DNA from: a virus
Length of the DNA: 33,251 bases
Direction: 5' to 3' (one strand)
Virus record (IMG/VR): IMGVR_UViG_3300033388_001380
Span: 1-33,251 of that record
The position numbers and the translations under genes are program-made. The notes beneath the pieces were generated by a model. That model was not told where the DNA came from. It searched no databases and saw only the letters and a program-made list of their open reading frames with translations. Shown here in pieces: positions 1,905 through 22,250 of the stretch; position 1 is the first letter of the stretch; the number at the start of each line of letters is the position of its first letter.

Positions 1905-2124
1905 ATTTACAATACAAATGTTAGAGTTAAGTGTTGCCGCTAGTGCGGCTGCTATTATTAGCTCTTACGTTACAACGAAAGTGCTTGCATTTAGAACACG
2001 CAAGAAACGTCGTGCAAGAGAAAATGCATTGCGCGATATTGCAAGTCACAAATGGGACACAGGCGAACACAACGATGCTGTAGTTATTACGCGCATCGCA
2101 TTGCGAGGGTTGGAGGGAGAGTGA
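1897..2124 (+). CDS. Small single-pass membrane protein
   Basis: 75 residues. A hydrophobic helix at about 8-27 is followed by a strongly basic stretch (FRTRKKRRARENALR), giving an N-out/C-in orientation by the positive-inside rule, then a soluble tail. The ATG at 1897 is preferred over one at 1852 because AAGGAAAG lies just upstream and because it limits the overlap with the 1770 gene. Function unknown. Confidence 0.55.
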   Translation: MTEFTIQMLELSVAASAAAIISSYVTTKVLAFRTRKKRRARENALRDIASHKWDTGEHNDAVVITRIALRGLEGE

Positions 2125-2369
2125 AGTACGCACTCGTACAAACTACTTACAGCCCACAGAGAGAAATGGTTGTAGAGTTATACTTGATGCCGCTGAATGC
2201 AGCGTACCAAACTAATGATTGGCCTCACACGACATTATTGGCAGATGCAATGATCTTTGATACGCTTCGTGAGGCATTAGCATACATAGATGATGAACGC
2301 ATAGACGCTCATAAAGTCGCAAGGATAGAAGATAAAGATTTGTTTGAAGCAAGGTTGGCAAGGACATGA
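2121..2369 (+). CDS. Small paralogue family, member B
   Basis: 82 residues from a GTG start at 2121, which overlaps the upstream TGA (GTGA) and has a very good GGAGGGAGA site before it. The product shares with the 4, 2366 and 2671 proteins the pattern KYA/KYV at the start, a central (A/D)A.(I/V)FDT..EA motif and a C-terminal (V)...D..LF.ARL ending. Three consecutive genes of this kind suggest tandem duplication followed by divergence. No known domain is recognised. Confidence 0.6.
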   Translation: MKYALVQTTYSPQREMVVELYLMPLNAAYQTNDWPHTTLLADAMIFDTLREALAYIDDERIDAHKVARIEDKDLFEARLART

Positions 2370-2674
2370 AGTACGTAATATATTCTAAACATCCAGATGA
2401 TATTGAATCAGACGCTAAGACTTTAGATAGAACAGTGCCTGTGTACTACAGGTCTACTACTTTCAAAAGTAGTGATTGGGATACGTACGGATCACAGCCT
2501 GCATTGACTAATAAATGGACGGTGAAGCTACGAGAAGCAAAGGTATTTGATACGAGGGTAGAAGCGATAGATTTATTTGAAAAGAATATAGAACAGAACG
2601 TTGCTATACCTAAATATATTCATATTGTTCAAGTCACTGATAAGCAGTTATTCAAAGCAAGGCTAGCAGCATGA
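2366..2674 (+). CDS. Small paralogue family, member C
   Basis: 102 residues. N-terminal KYVIYSKHPDD resembles member A; the centre has REAKVFDTRVEAIDLF; the end has VTDKQLFKARLAA. It starts and ends in ATGA overlaps with members B and D. It is the most complete version of the family and the best seed for a profile search. Function unknown; the alternating strand/helix pattern suggests a small alpha/beta fold. Confidence 0.65.
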   Translation: MKYVIYSKHPDDIESDAKTLDRTVPVYYRSTTFKSSDWDTYGSQPALTNKWTVKLREAKVFDTRVEAIDLFEKNIEQNVAIPKYIHIVQVTDKQLFKARLAA

Positions 2675-2937
2675 ACAACAGTCCTAACATTCCAGTTGAA
2701 GATCGCAAGTATGTATTGCGCTTTCCTAAGTCTCGCAGAGCCGCGTTAGCTGGCAGGGATAATTGGAAGTGGTACTATTATACGGGCAAGGAACCGACAG
2801 CTAAGATACACAAAGCAAAAACATTTAGTTTAAAATATGCAAAGGCAGCTAAACAATTTGCTCACACGACACACAGGTGTGAAATTAAACGAGTAACACA
2901 GAAGATGCTGTTTAAAGCAGCACTAAAAGGAAAATAA
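2671..2937 (+). CDS. Small paralogue family, member D
   Basis: 88 residues, strongly basic. It matches the family at KYVLRF near the N-terminus, KAKTFSLKYAKAAKQF in the centre and VTQKMLFKAALKGK at the end. The high Lys/Arg content, compared with neutral members B and C, suggests divergence toward nucleic-acid or membrane contact, but this is inference. ATGA overlap with member C and TAATG overlap with the next gene. Confidence 0.65.
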   Translation: MNNSPNIPVEDRKYVLRFPKSRRAALAGRDNWKWYYYTGKEPTAKIHKAKTFSLKYAKAAKQFAHTTHRCEIKRVTQKMLFKAALKGK

Positions 2938-3218
2938 TGAGTTTTCTACAATGGTACGGAATAGGAATTGTAATCTTACTGATGTTGTTTAGTTGGGAAG
3001 CACTCATCACGAACAATACAATAAAGAAAGCGATAGATGAAGTGTATGATGTATTCATACGCAAAGCAGATAAGTTATCGACTAGTGTTCTGCTTATAGT
3101 AGCATTGTTCGGTCCTCTCTTGCTTCCAGCGATAGGTTACTTCAAGTTTCGCTCATGGCAAGACAGTCTAGCAGTTGATGAGGATGACAACAGAGTTTAT
3201 CCGTGGAGTAAAGAATGA
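2937..3218 (+). CDS. Small membrane protein, two predicted TM helices
   Basis: 93 residues. Hydrophobic segments at about 6-20 (YGIGIVILLMLFSW) and 48-66 (STSVLLIVALFGPLLLPAIGYF) enclose an amphipathic loop (TIKKAIDEVYDVFIRKAD). The C-terminus is acidic and soluble. Starts within TAATG and ends in ATGA. Not recognised; two-helix topology is compatible with a class II holin, but no lysis gene is visible in the window to support that. Confidence 0.6.
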   Translation: MSFLQWYGIGIVILLMLFSWEALITNNTIKKAIDEVYDVFIRKADKLSTSVLLIVALFGPLLLPAIGYFKFRSWQDSLAVDEDDNRVYPWSKE

Positions 3219-3553
3219 GTGAAATAAGCATGTACAGAAAGGTATTGGGCTACATGGGTGGTGACAAGAAACAGCCTATCTATCAGCACATGAAAGGTGC
3301 GCTAGTAACTAATGCAGTTATTAGTTGTAGTCAATGCAGAGCGATGATTAGCGGACACAATGGGCCGCGACAGGATGCTTGGTGCATCAAGTGTACAGAC
3401 GATAAAGTTGTGACTGATGCAGAAGAAAAGGTAGCAGCAAGAAAGAAAGCTACTGCCGATGCATTAGCGAAAAAGAAAGCTGATGCAGAAGAAAAAGCAA
3501 AAAAGAAGGCCGAAGACGAAGCAAAATCTGACATAGATTTCACTAAACAATGA
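3215..3553 (+). CDS. Zinc-finger-like protein with Lys/Ala-rich helical tail
   Basis: 112 residues in two parts. The first (to about residue 62) has a four-cysteine finger: CSQC and CIKC about 20 residues apart, with His48 between them. The second (about 66-105) is a long, highly charged helix made of repeated K-K-A-D-A-E-E-K units, likely a single extended or coiled helix. Zinc binding is inferred from the cysteine spacing. ATGA overlaps on both sides. No family assigned. Confidence 0.6.
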   Translation: MSEISMYRKVLGYMGGDKKQPIYQHMKGALVTNAVISCSQCRAMISGHNGPRQDAWCIKCTDDKVVTDAEEKVAARKKATADALAKKKADAEEKAKKKAEDEAKSDIDFTKQ

Positions 3554-3873
3554 ACATGTATGCATGGCAAGAGGATGTGCTAAAGAAAGGCTTTAAGCCA
3601 GGCGAGCTTAGAGTTATTGCTGTGCAGCGGCAGACAGGCAAAAGTATGATTGCACAACACATGATACGATTCACTAGCTCATGGACAGAATGGAAACCAG
3701 AATGGACTTGGAAGACAAGAGTATCGTCTAGGAGCGGCAAGATTATTTGGGGTCGGATCATGGTGCGTACAAGTAAGTACGTTGTCAGTGCTGGTAAGCT
3801 AATACAACAGCGCGCCACTCCTGCAGAAGCACTAACGCAACAAAAAGAAGCATTCAAGAGGGCACTAAGTTAA
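3550..3873 (+). CDS. Short protein with degenerate P-loop
   Basis: 107 residues. The N-terminal third (AWQEDVLKKGFKPGELRVIA, then VQRQTGKSM) resembles the start of RecA/DnaB-like or terminase-like ATPase domains: a strand followed by a GKS loop. The Walker A consensus GxxxxGK(S/T) lacks its first glycine (Val in that place), and no Walker B or sensor motif follows, so it is too short for a full ATPase. It may be a truncated relative or a binding-only domain. The middle is Trp/Arg-rich. It sits between unknown genes with ATGA and TAATG overlaps. Confidence 0.55.
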   Translation: MNMYAWQEDVLKKGFKPGELRVIAVQRQTGKSMIAQHMIRFTSSWTEWKPEWTWKTRVSSRSGKIIWGRIMVRTSKYVVSAGKLIQQRATPAEALTQQKEAFKRALS

Positions 3874-4148
3874 TGAACACTCAACGAGCAATTGACGCAA
3901 TGGACAAGTGGTTGACTGAAAACTACGAAGACACAGCACCTAGAAAGATTCCAGGGTGCTATCGCGCAGCAATGACAGCAATAGAAGCTGGCTCTTATGG
4001 AGAAGCAGCACACTTGAGATGGATGATTGGTGAAATGAGAACAATGACAGACACAGAGAAATTGATGCGCTGGATTGGTTTCATGCAAGGTGCGCTCTGG
4101 AGTCTCGGGTTTGTTTCAATTGATGAATTTAGAGAAATGAATGGGTAA
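3873..4148 (+). CDS. Hypothetical helical protein
   Basis: 91 residues, predicted all-helical, moderately acidic, with several Trp and Met residues. No family recognised. Starts in a TAATG overlap with the upstream gene; its end overlaps the next gene by eight bases. Function not proposed. Confidence 0.6.
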   Translation: MNTQRAIDAMDKWLTENYEDTAPRKIPGCYRAAMTAIEAGSYGEAAHLRWMIGEMRTMTDTEKLMRWIGFMQGALWSLGFVSIDEFREMNG

Positions 4149-4386
4149 GCGATTCGAAATCAGCGGCAAGTACTTTCGTGTACGACGCGGCAAACTAGTA
4201 GAAATACCTGAGAAGTGGGAAGGTATTGTTGCTCGGCCACAAACTATACGTAAGCGTCAGAGCAAGCTTACCCGCAAGCAAAAGAACGGTGACATAAAGA
4301 ATAATTGGAACCGAGACTTTGGGTGTGGTAAATACTTGCAGTATAAGAGAGGTGAAGATGTTTTCGGTGATGAATATGAAATGTAA
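4141..4386 (+). CDS. Hypothetical basic protein
   Basis: 81 residues, strongly basic in the middle (RKRQSKLTRKQKNGDIKNNW), with a beta-rich N-terminus (KRFEISGKYFRVRRGKLVEI). Basic charge suggests nucleic-acid contact, which is inference. It overlaps the next gene by 29 bases in another frame. Confidence 0.55.
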   Translation: MGKRFEISGKYFRVRRGKLVEIPEKWEGIVARPQTIRKRQSKLTRKQKNGDIKNNWNRDFGCGKYLQYKRGEDVFGDEYEM

Positions 4387-4594
4387 AGAATGTATAGATG
4401 AAGGTAAAAAGAGTAAAGTTTTTCCAGGAGGCAGCAGTTGCACATTGATGTACTGCGCGCCGTTCTATGATGAGGATGGAAATTATCATCATCACGACAG
4501 CAATACGACTACGACTGACTATTCGTGCAGCAACGGGCATAGGTGGGTAGTTAGCTCACAAGGTCAATGCGGCAGTTGCGATTGGGGTCATTGA
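4358..4594 (+). CDS. Small Cys/His-rich protein, possible zinc binder
   Basis: 78 residues from the ATG at 4358, chosen because AGAGGTGAAG lies just upstream; an earlier in-frame codon at 4319 and later ATGs at 4370 and 4376 are alternatives. CKEC near the start and a terminal SCSNGH...CGSC-type cluster with an HHH run between (NYHHHD) could make one or two zinc sites. The middle contains PGG.S.TLMY..PFYDEDG, which looks like a conserved small phage protein, but I cannot name the family. Last gene before the promoter at 4614. Confidence 0.6.
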   Translation: MFSVMNMKCKECIDEGKKSKVFPGGSSCTLMYCAPFYDEDGNYHHHDSNTTTTDYSCSNGHRWVVSSQGQCGSCDWGH

Positions 4595-4613
4595 ACAACA
4601 GGAAATAAAGTGG

Positions 4614-4642
4614 TTGCTATCTAGGTGGTAGCATGTTATAAT
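4614..4642 (+). promoter_or_regulatory. Sigma70-type promoter with internal inverted repeat
   Basis: TTGCTA (4614-4619) and TATAAT (4637-4642) are separated by 17 bases: a near-consensus host-type promoter in the only gap of this small-gene region, 25 bases before the ATG at 4667. The spacer holds GCTATC (4616-4621) and GGTAGC (4627-4632), an inverted repeat with one G-T pair, which could be an operator or a weak terminator for the upstream operon. Confidence 0.65.
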
Positions 4643-4666
4643 TATTTTTTAATCAGAGTGATAATC

Positions 4667-4906
4667 ATGGCTAAGATGAAGAAAGAAGAAATCGCAGTTA
4701 AGTTTGCAGCATTGAGTGACGTTGCAAAGGCCAAAAACATCGAAAACAAGAACAAACGTTTTCTTCCTATGTCTCATGTTCGGCATCACAAGCTCCAAGA
4801 GTTTGGGTTGTACGATTATAAGACTAAACGATACACACTGGGCAGCATCCATTCTGGAAAGGCTCAGACAATCCTCAAAGAAATGCGAGAAATGTTGAAC
4901 AAGTAA
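4667..4906 (+). CDS. Hypothetical basic protein
   Basis: 79 residues, lysine-rich, beginning MAKMKKEEIAVKF. First gene behind the promoter at 4614-4642. The ATG at 4667 is preferred to an in-frame codon at 4625 because the latter lies inside the promoter. The sequence KRFLPMSHVRHHKLQEFGLY followed by KRYTLGSIHSGKAQTI has a small winged-helix-like look, but no family is assigned. Stop overlaps the next ATG (TAATG). Confidence 0.6.
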   Translation: MAKMKKEEIAVKFAALSDVAKAKNIENKNKRFLPMSHVRHHKLQEFGLYDYKTKRYTLGSIHSGKAQTILKEMREMLNK

Positions 4907-5163
4907 TGACCACTCAGCGAGAATTACTTGAGGATGAAGTACACACCGTTAATGAACAGTTGTATGCTTCATACAAACACATCGCAGAGTTGAATAAGCG
5001 CATTACTAAGTTAGAAGAAGAAATCAAAGGGACAGTCGATTTAATAGCACAGGCCGATACTGGCGGCGCGTTGCGCAATCACGAAAACAGTCGAATGAGA
5101 CTGCTCGTTGAAGACGCAAAGGATATGACTGAGAGATATAATCTGTTCAACTATTGGGACTAA
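4906..5163 (+). CDS. Small coiled-coil protein
   Basis: 85 residues. Residues 5-45 form a clear heptad pattern (LLEDEVHTVNEQLYASYKHI, then AELNKRITKLEEEI), so a coiled coil, probably a dimer. The rest is helical and charged. Starts in the TAATG overlap with the 4667 gene. Function unknown. Confidence 0.6.
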   Translation: MTTQRELLEDEVHTVNEQLYASYKHIAELNKRITKLEEEIKGTVDLIAQADTGGALRNHENSRMRLLVEDAKDMTERYNLFNYWD

Positions 5164-5165
5164 CT

Positions 5166-5420
5166 ATGTCTGAGCATGATCCTAACGATCCCGTAAAGAT
5201 TTCATTTACCGTTAAAGATGAAGCGATGGAACCGTGGTTCGATAAGCGAATTGCTGATCTGAAAGAGTATGATGCAGGATTTTATTGTCAGACTAACAGT
5301 TGGTTGCACGGAGTACTCTATACACTGACTACGACTCGCCGACACCTAGAACATGAAGACTTCAAGAAATTCATGTTCCAAGTAAAACTCAAGCTCGGTG
5401 AGGATGTTAAGATACGATGA
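5166..5420 (+). CDS. Hypothetical protein
   Basis: 84 residues from ATG 5166, just after the upstream stop; an in-frame TTG at 5154 would overlap that gene but has no better ribosome-binding site. The C-terminal part (F.KFMFQVKLKLGEDVKI) faintly resembles the same region of the next product (LDRFLFKLRLRFPNFVAH), so the two may be distant paralogues. Not otherwise recognised. Confidence 0.55.
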   Translation: MSEHDPNDPVKISFTVKDEAMEPWFDKRIADLKEYDAGFYCQTNSWLHGVLYTLTTTRRHLEHEDFKKFMFQVKLKLGEDVKIR

Positions 5421-5740
5421 AGAAACGTATAGAACGAAAGGTCTATTTCAAACTTCAATTCAGTCTAGGCAAAGTAACTTCCGAAGATGTTGATTGGGTG
5501 CGTGAAGCAATGGAAGCATTAGAGACTTGTCCTGCGATAATGAAGTGCTTTCAGAATACTAGCGTATCTGTATTTGATGGTAACGGTTCATGGAATAGAC
5601 TAGACAATACTAATCCAGATTTTACTGTGTACTATCGTGAGGAATCAGTAGATGCACTTGACAGATTTTTATTCAAGTTGAGACTTCGATTCCCTAACTT
5701 TGTTGCTCACACTTCGCAAACACTTCAAGAACACTTTTAA
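5417..5740 (+). CDS. Hypothetical protein
   Basis: 107 residues; starts in an ATGA overlap. Alternating strands and helices suggest a small alpha/beta domain. Its stop TAA lies within the stop of the oppositely oriented gp5 gene (shared TTAA at 5737-5740), so the two genes meet tail to tail with no terminator between them. Function unknown. Confidence 0.55.
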   Translation: MKKRIERKVYFKLQFSLGKVTSEDVDWVREAMEALETCPAIMKCFQNTSVSVFDGNGSWNRLDNTNPDFTVYYREESVDALDRFLFKLRLRFPNFVAHTSQTLQEHF

Positions 5741-14886: not shown

Positions 14887-15275
14887 TGAAGAAACGAACC
14901 TCACCTAAGAATCTACGCAAGCCAAGAATTATCTCTGGTGGATGGGCATTCTCTGGCGCAGTTACATTGGGCACTATAACTGATGAGTCCGGAATGTATT
15001 TCCAGACTGACACAACTAGTGTCACGTTCCCCTCAGGAACATTTTCTGGATTTCAAGTCGGTGACGTAATAACTATAACAGGTGGACAAGAGGCTAAAAA
15101 GAAAAAGAAAGTTCATGTTGCTCGGCGCCGCAAACAGAATAAAGAAACAACACATACAATTACTGATGTAAGGAGTACTACTATGACTATAGCAGTAAAT
15201 GATTTAGTAACAGCAACAAAGATTTCAGAAACAGGTTGGTCAATACACTCTACAACAGGAACAATTACATTCTGA
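14886..15275 (+). CDS. Small beta-domain protein with a basic insert
   Basis: 129 residues, not a known DNA-metabolism protein. About 25-60 and 85-128 are beta-rich: [16 protein letters not shown], then [15 protein letters not shown] and [14 protein letters not shown]. The same pattern (FYSGQVITIGG, VYEIANDGVTALVITV) occurs in the N-terminal part of the fibre-like product at 29101. Between the two halves is a very basic insert ([17 protein letters not shown]), where the fibre protein has a short turn (SGTTNDG). So this looks like a virion-type domain adapted for DNA or nucleotide-polymer contact, placed between gp46 and PurF. Start by TAATG overlap; its TGA shares an A with the purF ATG. Confidence 0.6.
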
Positions 15276-16726
15276 TGTGTGGAGTAGTTGGCATCTTTGG
15301 ACATACGCCCGTAGCGCAACCGTTATACGACGCGCTGACTATGCTACAGCATAGAGGACAAGATGCTGCAGGCATCGTAACGTGTAATGGAGAAGGCTTG
15401 CACACTCGCAAAGGTCGAGGCATGGTACGCGATGTATTTCACACGCGACACATGCGTAGGCTTAAAGGCAACGCAGGCATAGGTCACGTTCGCTATCCGA
15501 CCGCAGGTGCGAAGAAAGCAGGAGAGTCACAACCCTTCTATGTCAACAGTCCTTACGGAATATGTCTAGCACACAATGGCAATCTAGTTAACTATGACGA
15601 TCTATCAGACATGCTAGCAAGCACTGATCTTCGTCACCTCAACAGCAAGAGTGATAGTGAAGTTCTATTGAATGTCTTTGCACATGAATTGCAGAAGATC
15701 GGGCAGCACGGAGTAATGGCTGATCGTATATTCGATGCGGTAACACAACTACACAAGCGAGTCAGTGGTGGCTATGCAGTTGTCTCATTGATAGCGAACA
15801 ATGGGCTTGTTGCTTTTCGTGATCCGAATGGAATTCGTCCTCTTGTGTTAGGCAAGCGTGATGGCACAAGCGGAACTGAATACATGATAGCAAGCGAGAG
15901 TGTTGCGCTTGATGCATTAGACTTTGAACGTGTACGAGATATTACCCCAGGCGAAGCAATCTACATTGACAACAAAGGACGATTACATTCTCAAGTGTGT
16001 ACTAACAAATCAGTATGGTCACCTTGCATCTTTGAGTATGTATATCTTGCAAGACCTGATAGTATGATCGACGGCATATCAGTCTACAAGGCTAGACTAC
16101 GAATGGGCGAGAAACTAGCAGAGAAGATCATACGTGAGAATAAGCATCTCGACATAGATGTTGTCATTCCTATTCCTGATACAAGTCGAACACCTGCTGT
16201 GCAAGTAGCACATGGGCTAGGTGTTAAGTTCAGGGAAGGCTTCATCAAAAACAGATACATACCTCGCACGTTTATCATGCCAGGTCAAGCGATGCGAGAG
16301 AAGTCAGTCAAGCAAAAGCTAAACGCAATTGATTTAGAATTTAAAGACAAGAATGTATTACTCGTTGACGATAGCATTGTGCGTGGCACAACGTCGCGAG
16401 AGATTATAAAAATGGCGCGCAGGGCAGGTGCGAAGAAAGTTTATTTCGCGTCTGCTGCTCCCCCTGTGCGCTATCCTAATGTATACGGAATCAATATGCC
16501 TACATCAAAAGAGTTGATAGCATCTGGTTGCGAGGAGAAGGACGTAGAAGCATTGATCGGTGCTGATTGGCTTGTGTACCAAGACCTAGACGCACTTACG
16601 GAGTCAGTTGTGTATGAAGAAAGCATTGTACGCACCTTTGACACCTCATGCTTCTCTGGTCAGTATGTTACAGGTGATGTGACACCTGAGTATTTGAAGA
16701 AGTTAGCGGAGTCTGGTAGTGGTTGA
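15275..16726 (+). CDS. purF: Amidophosphoribosyltransferase PurF
   Basis: 483 residues, catalysing PRPP + glutamine to phosphoribosylamine, the first committed step of purine synthesis. Start at 15275 makes Met-Cys-Gly, so removal of Met exposes the catalytic Cys as in E. coli PurF; a longer frame from 15236 would bury it. The Ntn glutaminase domain (about 2-235) has [37 protein letters not shown] and [16 protein letters not shown]. The phosphoribosyltransferase domain has [25 protein letters not shown] and the PRPP loop [14 protein letters not shown] (about 361-374). No propeptide and no obvious Fe-S cysteines, so the E. coli type rather than the Bacillus type. Length close to E. coli (505), C-terminus shorter. 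Likely boosts nucleotide supply for phage DNA. Confidence 0.97.
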
Positions 16727-16970
16727 CAAGAAGACTAAGTTTGTGTTATCATTACAGGGTAAAGAATACGCTGGGCATTTAGATCACTGGTCTGTTGATA
16801 GAGGAGACCTAGCAGGATTAGTTTGTGGAGAGTATCAGTTGACCGCCCGCTGTAGACATTACGAAATTATAAACAACGAGTATGCAATATCTGAACACGC
16901 ATATGTTACACTCGGACAGCAATGTACCCATCAAGAAATAGTAGAAATGTATACTGCAATAGGAACATAA
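16719..16970 (+). CDS. Hypothetical small protein
   Basis: 83 residues from a GTG start that overlaps the purF end by eight bases. Beta-rich, with four cysteines (Cys36, Cys45, Cys69 plus aromatic/His residues around CRHYE and QQCTHQE), which could bind a metal, though the spacing is irregular. Not recognised. Its stop overlaps the nuclease start (TAATG). Confidence 0.55.
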
Positions 16971-17479
16971 TGGCTAAGAAAGTAAACGGAAAACAGAAAG
17001 GCAACAGATTTGAGAGAGACATAGCTAATATGTTCTCTGAACGCTTTGCTGAGTACACAGGAATAGAACAAAGCTTCCGACGAAACCCTGATAGTGGTAG
17101 CTTTTTCGGAGGCAAGAACGTAGCTCGCGCAGAAACACATGACACTGATTGGGCAGTCTATGGCGATCTGATTTGTCCGAAAGCATTTCGATTCGTTGTC
17201 GAGTGTAAGAACTATAAGAAGCCGCCTACATTCAAATCTCTAATAGAAGATAATGTTTCTGAATGGGACGGTTGGCTTGAGCAAGTGCGCGCAGACGCAA
17301 GAGCATGTGGAAAGTATCCGATGCTCATTATCAAATACAATAACGTACCAACATTTGTGTTGTTGAATTGGTCTGATCTTGACCGAGAATACGTAATTGA
17401 ATACGGTGGGGCAAAGGTATTTCCGATTGCTAAAGTACTTGAGGAAGACGATCCATTCTTCTTTGACACTACAGCATAA
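16970..17479 (+). CDS. PD-(D/E)XK nuclease, Holliday-junction-resolvase-like
   Basis: 169 residues. The start at 16970 follows a TAATG overlap and gives [20 protein letters not shown], the usual entry of Hjc/RecB-like nucleases (Glu15). The catalytic set is completed by Asp66 (VYGDLI) and the FVVECKNYKK strand (Glu78, Lys80). Such enzymes cleave branched DNA or junctions, which fits the gp46/gp47 genes in the same operon; T4 uses the unrelated endonuclease VII. Specificity (junction, flap or a restriction-type site) cannot be read from sequence. The last codons contain the -35 box of the next promoter. Confidence 0.75.
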   Translation: MAKKVNGKQKGNRFERDIANMFSERFAEYTGIEQSFRRNPDSGSFFGGKNVARAETHDTDWAVYGDLICPKAFRFVVECKNYKKPPTFKSLIEDNVSEWDGWLEQVRADARACGKYPMLIIKYNNVPTFVLLNWSDLDREYVIEYGGAKVFPIAKVLEEDDPFFFDTTA

Positions 17480-18535: not shown

Positions 18536-19096
18536 TTATTTCCCCCATGGTCTGCGATTATATATGCGTAGGACACGCTTGATCCAATCTTCTGGATACT
18601 GATCTACTACATCAGCAGTCATACATAGGCGTACAGCTACAATAGTAGGGCCGACTGTATCAACAGAAATAACGCCTGCGAACTTTTGGAAGTGCATTGT
18701 AGCCATAGCTGAGATACGTAGTTCAATGTCACCGCGTAGATTATCATTGAGGACTTTCTTGCCGTCTTCGATATGATGATGTGCAGCCCACTTAATAGCA
18801 CCTTTCATAACAACTACGTCTGTAGTCAATGCTTCGCCATATAGTTCGCCAGTATAGATTACACCTGATCGTGAGTCGCCACTTTCAACTGTGAACTCTT
18901 GCAGTGGATACGTTAAGTTGCCTAGTGCAAACGGCGCCCATTTAATACTTTGAAAGTCAAGCAATCGTGATGTACTGTAAACCCAATTGTACTTCGGGTA
19001 CAGTTCATATGCTACTTCGTCGTTAAGCGGAATGTCTACGTTTGTTTCAACGTCCGCAAATATTGTGTCTTTTGTGTCTATTCCTAAGAATGTCAT
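18536..19096 (-). CDS. Hypothetical protein, possible virion assembly role
   Basis: 186 residues, mixed alpha/beta. Conspicuous segments are NDEVAYELYPKYNWVYSTSR, IKWAPFALGNLTYPLQEF and a C-terminal YPEDWIKRVLRIYNRRPWGK. No transmembrane or catalytic motif. It follows the gp26 frameshift extension by 13 bases (AAGAGGTAAACACACATG, ribosome-binding site AAGAGG), within the same late operon, so a tail/baseplate role is plausible. Family not recognised. Confidence 0.65.
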   Translation of the reverse strand: MTFLGIDTKDTIFADVETNVDIPLNDEVAYELYPKYNWVYSTSRLLDFQSIKWAPFALGNLTYPLQEFTVESGDSRSGVIYTGELYGEALTTDVVVMKGAIKWAAHHHIEDGKKVLNDNLRGDIELRISAMATMHFQKFAGVISVDTVGPTIVAVRLCMTADVVDQYPEDWIKRVLRIYNRRPWGK

Positions 19097-19109: not shown

Positions 19110-19343
19110 TTACATTGATTTCTTGCCAGTCTGTGCTTCTTCTCTTTCTTTGTATATCTTGTTAATGTATGTTATCATCTTATTTCGCTGCCTAGGACTC
19201 ATTCCCCAAGCTTCGTTCCATGTAACGCCTTTCATGTGATAGCAAAGTTCAATACATCCCTGCTCAATAGCATCCATATCTTTCCGAAGCTGTTGTAAAT
19301 GGTCCCTGATCTCCTCGGGTTCTGCTAGTGATAGAAACCTTAT
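19110..19343 (-). CDS. Frameshift extension of gp26 (gp26'), 77 codons in the -1 frame
   Basis: In the -1 frame, the reading frame stays open from the last codon of gp26 to TAA at 19110-19112. It begins ATA AGG after the slippery site and encodes IRFLSLAEPEEIRDHLQQLR, then KDMDAIEQGCIELCYHMKG and VTWNEAWGMSPRQRNKMITY, ending KKSM. A shift would give a 361-residue gp26-gp26' fusion. Helical, with the VTWNEAWGMSPRQR pattern reminiscent of C-terminal domains of tail assembly chaperones. An ATG at 19275-19277 with GGAAAG three bases before it could alternatively start a separate 55-residue protein. Confidence 0.65.
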   Translation of the reverse strand: MRFLSLAEPEEIRDHLQQLRKDMDAIEQGCIELCYHMKGVTWNEAWGMSPRQRNKMITYINKIYKEREEAQTGKKSM

Positions 19344-20194
19344 AAAAAATTTACAGGATTAAATTCAATCGGCGCTTCCCATTTATGTCCACAGGTTGTG
19401 CAAACAGCATCTAGTGTTTTTGCTATACCTATCTTATTAATATCGCTGATCTTACTATCTATGAGATCAACTGTAGACTTGTCTATGTTCTTAATAAAAT
19501 CTGAAATCTGTTTCTTATTAGTGACTGTCTGTATTTCATCTTCTGCGTCTGTAAACACAATCTTGTCAATTGCCGCTTCAATTACTTCAAAATTCAATTT
19601 TGTTAGTGCTTTGAATACTTGAGCCAATAATGTCATTTGCGTTTCATCAGTTAACGAAGGATTAGTCATTGCTCTCTGTATTTTAGCATTCTCAAACGCT
19701 GCTTTATTTTGACGAGTTGTTGTGTCAAATGATCCTGGTTTGAGATATACTGTCAAATTGTTAGGTAGTACTACTTCGTATGTTTCGTCAAGTGTTTCTG
19801 TGTCATTGAGTAGCATTTCGAGATTCAAAGCGAATTCGTTTTTAGCTTTACATTCCACATTAGGACATTCTAGTTCCATAGAAGCTTCATCACCATACGA
19901 TGCTTCTCTAATTGCAATCATTAGTGCATCAATATCACAAGCTAATAGTTTTTTGGGTTTCTTGATGCCGCTAACACAACTAGTAATTACGTCTACAATT
20001 GCCTTTCCAGATAGTAATGCATCTGGATTCTTAAGAGTAATCTCATCTGCGGCAGTCATAGCCATAACTGCAAGTTCACCATTGTCTAGAAACTCAACAA
20101 CATCATCGTCGTAATAGTGTCCCCTAGACGGTAGTTGTATGAAAGCTGTCTCCTTGCGATAAAACTGCTGTAGTGGATTTGCTTTTGTGTTCAT
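19340..20194 (-). CDS. 26: Baseplate hub/tail assembly protein gp26-like
   Basis: 284 residues, resembling the T4 baseplate protein family that includes gp26. Recognisable parts: FIQLPSRGHYYDDDVVEF (about 18-35), EITLKNPDALLSG (51-63), KLLACDIDALMIAIREASYG (82-101), and two metal-like pairs, CPNVEC (110-115) and CTTCGHKWEAP near the C-terminus. T4 gp26 is about 208 residues. Ribosome-binding site is AGGGG seven bases before the ATG; a late octamer lies at 20255-20262. It stands next to the tape measure gene but diverges from it. The 3' end carries a predicted -1 frameshift site, so two products are expected, as for tail assembly chaperones. Confidence 0.75.
   Translation of the reverse strand: MNTKANPLQQFYRKETAFIQLPSRGHYYDDDVVEFLDNGELAVMAMTAADEITLKNPDALLSGKAIVDVITSCVSGIKKPKKLLACDIDALMIAIREASYGDEASMELECPNVECKAKNEFALNLEMLLNDTETLDETYEVVLPNNLTVYLKPGSFDTTTRQNKAAFENAKIQRAMTNPSLTDETQMTLLAQVFKALTKLNFEVIEAAIDKIVFTDAEDEIQTVTNKKQISDFIKNIDKSTVDLIDSKISDINKIGIAKTLDAVCTTCGHKWEAPIEFNPVNFL
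19343..19349 (-). promoter_or_regulatory. Predicted -1 ribosomal frameshift site (U UUU UUA)
   Basis: The gp26 codons AAT TTT TTA TAA contain U UUU UUA in the correct register for a -1 slip, directly before the stop. A second X XXY YYZ heptamer, A AAU UUU, overlaps it one codon earlier. Three bases downstream, GGTTTCT can pair with AGAACC (19315-19338 region), a possible stimulatory stem. The stop codon next to the slip site should itself favour pausing. Confidence 0.6.
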
Positions 20195-20217
20195 CTAAAA
20201 ACCCCTTATAATACTGT

Positions 20218-20225
20218 GATAAATA
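20218..20225 (+). promoter_or_regulatory. Late promoter octamer GATAAATA for the tape measure gene
   Basis: GATAAATA, 63 bases before the GTG at 20289. It faces the - strand octamer at 20255-20262, so the two late transcripts overlap by roughly 20-25 bases at their 5' ends. Confidence 0.65.
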
Positions 20226-20254
20226 AGAGTATAGAAATACTCTAATTATATCAG

Positions 20255-20262
20255 TATTTATC
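20255..20262 (-). promoter_or_regulatory. Late promoter octamer GATAAATA for the gp26 operon
   Basis: Reads GATAAATA on the - strand, 60 bases before the gp26 ATG at 20194. It implies late expression of gp26 and the three genes behind it. Confidence 0.65.
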
Positions 20263-20288
20263 TATAAAATTGTGAGGGGTTTTAAAGC

Positions 20289-22250
20289 GTGGCTGACATT
20301 GGTAGTGAAGTCGAAGTAACTGGAAGTATTTACGGGCCGTGGGCATCTGAGAAGACGCTCGCTGATCTCCTTGACACTATAAAAGACCTTGTCGGCACAA
20401 GTGAAGAACAAAAGAAGTTACTTCAGCGCCAAGCCACAGAGATGAAGAATACTGGTAAAGTATCTTCTGGTGGTGCAGCAGGCAGCCCCAAGGGAGCAAA
20501 AGAAGTTCAGTCTGCTACCAAGATAATGACTACTGGCCTCAAAGAATCAGGTCAATCAGCATTAGAATCGGCAGCAGGATTCGATGAGCTTAACAGTGGA
20601 CCACTAAAATCATTCGGCAAGTCACTTAAGAACGCATCTCCTGCATTTAAAGGAATGCTCGTCGGCGTTGGTCTAGTTGCTGGAGCTATAGGTAAGTACA
20701 TCAAGTCAGTCAACCAGAGTGTTACTGTCTTGCGCGGCCTAGCAGACTCAGGTGTTGGATTCTCAGGTAGCTTCGTAGAAGTATCAGGCGCACTAGCTAC
20801 TACAGGTCTAACACTTGAACACTTCGGTGAGATGGCAGATAAGTATGCTAGAGTCATGGGTCAAAATGGTCTTCAAGGTCTGCTTAATCTTACTACTGCA
20901 ACAGAAGACGCTGCAGGCGGCTTCTCTCGATTCGGACTAACAACGGCAGAAGCAACAGAGTACGCAGCAGAATATCTCGATCAACAGAGAATGGCAGGTG
21001 TATTTGGCAAGGCAAATGACGCTAATCAAGCAGCAGCATTACAGAAAAACATTGAACGCTTGACATCTTACTCAAAAGTACTGAATGTCTCACGTAAAGA
21101 CTTACAAGATGCTTCAAGAGAAATGTTGAGTAATGCTGATCTACAAGCAGAATTGTTTAGCATGGCTCCGAAAGAACGAGCAGCAGCACAAGCAGCCTTC
21201 ACAGAAACAGCACAATCGTTTGCTGCAATGGGTCCTGCGGGGCTTGAAATGGGCAAGCTATTTACCGACATCGCTGCATCTCCTGTAGCAGAAGCGTCAG
21301 ATGGATTTCAACAGCTAGCTAATGCAGGTCTCGGTGATCTAGCAGCACGCATGGTTAAGCTTGCAGAAGCTAACAAAGCAGGCGAAGGCGCATCAGTCGA
21401 ACAGCTAATGGCAATGGCTAATCTTACACAAGCAGAAAAAGACCAACTAGCTGCGTTACGTCTAGCTGGTGGTGAGATTAAGAATACAGCCGTAATGGTT
21501 TCATCGTTCGGCCAAGCACAAGCAGAAGCAGTCGTGTCAATGGAAGAACATCGCAAGAAGGCAAAAGAACAAGGTAAGTCTATGGAAGAATACATGAAAA
21601 CCGTAGATGACAATGCAGCAGCACAAGCACACCTACAAGATGAACTATCGAAGTTTGAAGCTACTGCTGAGTACGGTATGGTCAAAGCATTCTCTACACT
21701 CTTAGGCGGCAAAGGCACAGAAGCAGTTAATATGGCTGCGGATGCGCTAGGAGTATTGAATGACAAAGCACGTACATTCATCGACGGCCCTATGGTTGAT
21801 GGCATTGAAGCATTCAAAGACAAAGCTATGGAAATTTGGGGCGTATTGAAAGAAATCTTTGCTGACTTAGGTGAAGTAATAAAACCGATAATTGGATTCT
21901 TTAGACGAGCAGGTGAAGTTATCAATGATATGATTCAAGGTATAATGCTGGGGTGGGATAGTTTAGCTGCATGGATTAAAGATGTAACTGGTGGAATAGT
22001 AGATTTAACTGGTGGCGGCGGCGAGGTTACAGAACCTACGATGGCTACTGTTAAAGGCGCAACTCATATGACAGATGAAGGCCAGCGCAACAGGTTTGCA
22101 AGATCACAACTAGCAGCAGGCGAAGCAACAGGCGCAGATGATGATGTTATGGTCGCGCTAAGAGAAATCATTGCCAACACATCTGAAGGTGCTAGACAAA
22201 CGAAGAAAGTCGCAAATGCTACAAAGGGCGGAGCTCTCAGCGAAACATAA
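20289..22250 (+). CDS. 29: Tail tape measure protein, gp29-like
   Basis: 653 residues, starting at GTG 20289 (AGGGG nine bases before). Features expected of a tape measure: long, alanine-rich, predicted almost wholly helical, with hydrophobic segments (MLVGVGLVAGAIGKYI, about 119-134; and IWGVLKEIFADLGEVIKPII, about 515-535) and Gln/Ala/Glu-rich helices (KERAAAQAAFTETAQSFAAM). T4 gp29 (590 residues) sets tail length at the hub. The C-terminus is flexible and glycine-rich (VDLTGGGGEV) then helical. Identification rests on composition and on the gp26 neighbour, not on a diagnostic motif. Confidence 0.7.
   Translation: MADIGSEVEVTGSIYGPWASEKTLADLLDTIKDLVGTSEEQKKLLQRQATEMKNTGKVSSGGAAGSPKGAKEVQSATKIMTTGLKESGQSALESAAGFDELNSGPLKSFGKSLKNASPAFKGMLVGVGLVAGAIGKYIKSVNQSVTVLRGLADSGVGFSGSFVEVSGALATTGLTLEHFGEMADKYARVMGQNGLQGLLNLTTATEDAAGGFSRFGLTTAEATEYAAEYLDQQRMAGVFGKANDANQAAALQKNIERLTSYSKVLNVSRKDLQDASREMLSNADLQAELFSMAPKERAAAQAAFTETAQSFAAMGPAGLEMGKLFTDIAASPVAEASDGFQQLANAGLGDLAARMVKLAEANKAGEGASVEQLMAMANLTQAEKDQLAALRLAGGEIKNTAVMVSSFGQAQAEAVVSMEEHRKKAKEQGKSMEEYMKTVDDNAAAQAHLQDELSKFEATAEYGMVKAFSTLLGGKGTEAVNMAADALGVLNDKARTFIDGPMVDGIEAFKDKAMEIWGVLKEIFADLGEVIKPIIGFFRRAGEVINDMIQGIMLGWDSLAAWIKDVTGGIVDLTGGGGEVTEPTMATVKGATHMTDEGQRNRFARSQLAAGEATGADDDVMVALREIIANTSEGARQTKKVANATKGGALSET

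Follow-up and report, generated by a model that had tools for sequence, protein, structure and literature searches.

How many proteins does the gp26 gene of a T4-like phage encode when it ends in slippery codons and is separated from the next ORF by a gap that stays open in the -1 frame? The question is raised by an IMG/VR virus record of 33,251 bases, analysed here over its whole length (the window), in which the head genes are T4-like: the portal gp20 was recognised by profile search, and the prohead protease and major capsid protein gp23 are also present. Elsewhere in the window, positions 2052-5740 (+) hold a series of about 13 small ORFs (81-112 aa), most of which overlap or abut; only the first two are clearly similar to each other. 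A PurF-like amidophosphoribosyltransferase with glutamine amidotransferase and phosphoribosyltransferase domains is encoded at 15236-16726 (+), and a PDDEXK-type phage endonuclease (PF24608) at 16922-17479 (+). The features of the gp26 locus are as follows.

20289 to 22250, plus strand: divergent neighbour of 653 aa, a tape-measure candidate by its position and by notes on its counterparts in relatives
19340 to 20194, minus strand: gp26, 284 aa, the short form (TAC-N candidate), PF12322 T4_baseplate
19346 to 19352, minus strand: slippery heptamer A_AAT_TTT, of the X_XXY_YYZ type in the gp26 register, the likelier main -1 slip site
19343 to 19349, minus strand: overlapping heptamer T_TTT_TTA, also X_XXY_YYZ in the gp26 register, a second possible slip site; most relatives have T_TTT_TTC at the equivalent place
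19340 to 19342, minus strand: gp26 stop codon TAA, which the frameshift would bypass
19330 to 19339, minus strand: 5' arm of a hairpin with a 10-pair stem, GGTTTCTATC
19301 to 19311, minus strand: 3' arm of the same stem, with one bulged base
19113 to 19343, minus strand: -1 frame extension of 77 aa (TAC-C candidate), with its stop at 19112-19110
19275 to 19277, minus strand: first ATG of the -1 frame, from which internal initiation would give a 55-aa ORF

The gp26 gene ends in AAT CCT GTA AAT TTT TTA TAA, and it is alone among the 53 ORFs of the two strands of the window in carrying such a heptamer at its 3' end (the scan covered stop-to-stop ORFs of 100 codons or more and looked for T_TTT_TTN, A_AAT_TTN or A_AAA_AAN in the last 16 codons). 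The sequence-only reading of this DNA had placed both heptamers in the gp26 register and had followed the -1 frame for 77 codons to 19110, to a fusion of 361 residues; base-by-base inspection confirmed this, the frame being open for 77 codons after either slip (78 with the re-read Phe for A_AAT_TTT) and the predicted fusion having 361 aa. Its gap of about 240 bases was measured as 243 nt up to the next ORF (18536-19096), and the helical protein that it expected agrees with the structure model of 76 extension residues, which is all helical (pLDDT 90.5). The gp26 protein scores 62.9 bits against PF12322 (Pfam; curated cut-off 24.5), which places it in the T4 gp26/gp51 family, and matches the baseplate hub family phrog_150 (E 1.4e-23); its AlphaFold model has a pLDDT of 91.8. 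The window extension had no match in profile libraries and its model no match of note among solved structures. Searched by sequence against the PDB, gp26 and the extension had matches at chance level only.

Relatives were drawn from phage genome records and IMG/VR, yielding 102 distinct jumbo-type loci. The comparison of heptamer and -1 frame in relatives, proposed beforehand as a check, showed that in 101 of the 102 a slippery heptamer stands in register close to the end of gp26 and is followed by an open, protein-conserved -1 frame; the same holds for 62/62 loci of the cyanophage type. Counting one site per jumbo-type locus, the heptamers are T_TTT_TTC (76), A_AAT_TTT (18), T_TTT_TTT (5) and T_TTT_TTA (2); two of the 101 extensions run beyond the end of the fetched stretch. 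In the gp26 bodies of the 101 relatives T_TTT_TTN is found in register at only 2 of 25,594 codon positions, as opposed to 83/101 at the slip site. All 83 of these sites use TTT for the first Phe codon, against a background of 820 TTT to 349 TTC, and in all 83 the preceding codon has T as its last base, the background being 37%. On these counts, the presence of the heptamer with an open -1 frame is far beyond chance. Shine-Dalgarno-like stimulators 5' of the slip site are depleted, one locus having such a motif where 8.3 were expected. Relatives with an intact extension, a well-placed start codon and no heptamer, which had been named as evidence against slippage, amount to at most 1/102. This is L027, whose gp26 end (near 3350) reads TCT TTT TCT and has no standard heptamer; a T5 run and the -1 extension are conserved there, and the site may represent either a single-tRNA slip or decay.

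Downstream of the slip site, 15 loci from the clade of the window can form a 10-pair stem that begins 6 nt past A_AAT_TTT. In 14 distinct aligned sequences 87.9% of the stem cells are paired, versus 32-57% with the partner strand shifted along, and 17 cells show double-sided changes versus 6.2 +/- 2.3 in shuffles (0/500). The stem covaries in these sequences, and stimulation of slippage is its proposed role. Over 99 loci, the region directly downstream has a mean fold stability of z -1.01, compared with -0.16 to -0.48 at control offsets; the hairpin region of the window taken alone is not thermodynamically outstanding (z +0.8). Single cyanophage downstream regions fold strongly (mean z -2.7), and RNAalifold gave no consensus structure when these regions were taken ungapped.

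The initial emphasis had been on U UUU UUA. This heptamer is indeed in register, but it is A AAU UUU that is conserved in the clade: A_AAT_TTT is kept throughout, and outside the window T_TTT_TTA was seen in none but its closest relatives, L006 and L007. The hairpin begins 6 nt from A_AAT_TTT and 3 nt from T_TTT_TTA. Because of its clade-wide conservation and better spacing to the hairpin, A_AAT_TTT is the likelier main slip site.

In lambda (G/GT) and P2 (E/E+E') a -1 slip occurs near the end of a short ORF beside the tape-measure gene, and the window resembles them in both respects. The tape-measure candidate of the window had no telling profile match; its RaK2 homologue bears a note of similarity to a tape-measure protein, and the gp26 neighbour in PA5oct carries an ESI-MS/MS note. 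As the sequence-only reading had stated, gp26 is adjacent to this gene and divergent from it. In the lambda G/GT type the chaperone gene lies upstream of the tape-measure gene and is co-directional with it, whereas here gp26 is on the minus strand and the candidate on the plus strand. For this reason we file gp26 with T4 gp26/gp51 and say only that it would work like G/GT. The gp26 model aligned with the HK97 chaperone 2OB9 at Z 5.7 (89 aligned, 3.7 A), which is within noise and not above unrelated entries, and a Foldseek search of the PDB with this model returned nothing below E 0.6. Between gp26 and the tape-measure candidate (20195-20290) there are divergent ATAAATA motifs (20219 + and 20261 -) resembling T4 late promoters.

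Considering these data, it is very likely that the single gp26 gene gives a tail-assembly chaperone of two lengths, that the longer one arises by -1 ribosomal frameshifting, and that the pair works in the manner of lambda G/GT. A tail chaperone with a frameshift product had been the central proposal of the sequence-only reading, and it gains support from the conserved heptamer and -1 frame, the covarying hairpin, the non-conserved internal start and the link to the gp26/gp51 family; slippage in cells, its rate, the fusion protein and the chaperone function are inferred. Most ribosomes would halt at the TAA and release the 284-aa short form. On A_AAT_TTT (or on T_TTT_TTA) some would, with help from the hairpin, move back by one base and add the 77-aa helical extension to give the 361-aa long form. 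The short form would then correspond to T4 gp26 and the long form to T4 gp51. By analogy with lambda G/GT, the short form may coat the tape-measure protein and the extension of the long form may help to recruit tail-tube subunits.

The extension might instead be a separate small gene, with its own start codon or translated by reinitiation past the gp26 stop. Many GenBank records give it as an ORF of its own (for instance Phosso 3325-3555 and S-PM2 gp51), the first start codon is at extension codon index 3 in 31/62 cyanophage loci, and the -1 frame of the window does contain the ATG at 19277. However, PA5oct lacks this ATG, and so does the nearest relative, L006, in which the extension has its first ATG at codon index 36; among jumbo extensions the first start varies from codon index 1 to 75, or is lacking. 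No start codon occurs within the first 12 codons in 78/99 jumbo loci, nor within the first 25 in 43/99. In two Pseudomonas phages, PA5oct and PAC2, the whole extension is devoid of ATG, GTG and TTG, so that there it could be made only by frameshifting. The extension consensus among relatives is loose, with EE and W..M...R positions, and conserved residues are present 5' of the first ATG. Moreover, over the 22 codons at the start of the -1 frame, 34 independent pairs show 125/69/236 substitutions at codon positions 1/2/3, a pattern of protein-coding selection upstream of many possible starts. As a separate gene would also leave the conserved heptamer and hairpin unexplained, we regard it as improbable, and where a start codon overlaps the gp26 stop, as in some relatives, reinitiation could contribute. 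Still less probable, to the point of being hardly credible, is a frame change caused by RNA polymerase slipping on the T run. The sites do contain T runs of 5-7, but the longest run is only 5 in 18 loci and only 6 in 78, and runs of 5-6 are short for transcriptional slippage; a heptamer in register and, at a set distance from it, a covarying hairpin are hallmarks of the ribosome.

It may also be asked whether a frameshifted gp26 has a role other than that of tape-measure chaperone, for example as a hub component of the virion. Genetic studies cited in PMC3004832 put gp26 in the hub, GenBank labels the CBB homologue CBB_250 a structural protein, and the 'baseplate hub' annotation points the same way. 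Against this, PMC3004832 itself lists T4 gp26 and gp51 as hub assembly chaperones. In the virion peptide list of phage CBB (PMC5259590), the tape-measure candidate CBB_251 is represented by 29 unique peptides, and in the stretch of that list examined neither CBB_250 (gp26) nor CBB_249 (the extension) appears, as expected of a chaperone. Such a role is therefore unlikely, though somewhat less so than a separate extension gene, and the two-length chaperone remains our preferred reading.

The same organization is found in cyanophages. All 62 distinct cyanophage-type loci, S-PM2 included, have an in-register T_TTT_TTC, whose distance from the stop does not vary, and an open -1 extension. In S-PM2 (NC_006820, 150471-151363) gp26 is followed by a 57-aa 'gp51' annotated as a separate gene. 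Its gp26 ends in TCT TTT TTC GCA TAA and the -1 frame reads into the 'gp51' ORF; judging from this arrangement, 'gp51' looks like the frameshifted tail of gp26. On phrog_150, S-PM2 gp26 covers 5-232 and the S-PM2 frameshift ORF 240-281, while T4 gp51 alone covers 13-280; the window fusion is matched over its gp26 part only. The cyanophage extension matches phrog_634 (1.9e-27). The S-PM2 pair shares with the window the heptamer at the equivalent place (T_TTT_TTC), a hairpin in single folds and the -1 extension, and differs in its shorter extension (about 60 aa) and in the annotation of the latter as an independent gene.

In T4 itself there are two PF12322 genes, gp26 (215 bits) and gp51 (178 bits), which are homologous to each other (hhalign 98.8%, E 6e-17). 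Within the PF12322 family T4 has a short protein and a long one extended at the C-terminus, as is proposed for the window; unlike the window, T4 encodes them in two separate, divergent genes with no slippery site at the gp26 end, instead of one gene with a frameshift. The heptamer was absent from 10/10 T4-type gp26 ends. By profile search, a single PF12322 gene above the cut-off was found in 18/19 frameshifting genomes, and S-PM2 also has one; in SCTP-2 no PF12322 gene was detected by the profile model, and its gp26 was found by BLAST. A search for the gp51 family (phrog_634) in the frameshifting genomes gave nothing better than E 0.028. The window fusion aligned end to end with T4 gp51, a modest match (44% probability, E 2.4e-4), the extension alone gave E 0.02, and one relative's extension matched phrog_634 with E 0.002. 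In an unrooted tree T4 gp26 and gp51 group together, apart from the jumbo phage and cyanophage gp26 (support 93/84, long branches). We think it reasonably probable that frameshifting is ancestral for the short and long chaperones of T4-like phages. Jumbo phages and cyanophages would have retained it, and T4 with its close relatives would be the exception, having replaced it by duplication of the gene into gp26 and gp51. The tree grouping fits this reading, but it rests on long branches and on an unrooted tree.

The frameshift had been supposed not to be part of standard T4-like annotation. This holds for the annotated relatives examined, in every one of which it is unmarked (the CM1 record carries no annotation), but the concept is present in the literature. 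Vladimirov et al. (2022) identified T4-like chaperone genes; as summarised in PMC10885494, their work showed that some T4-like phages have separate short and long genes, and PMC12846349 credits the same authors with poly-T slippery sites in T4-like TAC-N genes. A chaperone frameshift in Vandenendeviridae/Andersonviridae, in phage Adele (PMC12846349), differs from the window in its GTTTTT motif. Literature searches pairing frameshift terms with jumbo phages yielded nothing on gp26; among 17 papers listed for RaK2, 121Q, PBECO4, GAP32 and PA5oct, the word frameshift occurs in only two, one surveying spanins (PMC6139136) and the other on metagenomics (PMC6487183). The idea is not wholly new, T4-like chaperone genes and poly-T slippery sites having been described before.

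The present analysis adds a survey that spans jumbo phages and cyanophages, the covariation of the hairpin, an argument from start codons and the contrast between one gene and the two genes of T4. In jumbo T4-like phages and cyanophages alike, a 'baseplate hub' gene and its adjoining 'hypothetical protein' would become two products of a single tail chaperone gene, and the same error probably recurs in many of their annotations. The single frameshifted gene, set beside the two genes of T4, would provide a natural pair for asking why a set ratio of short to long chaperone is needed.
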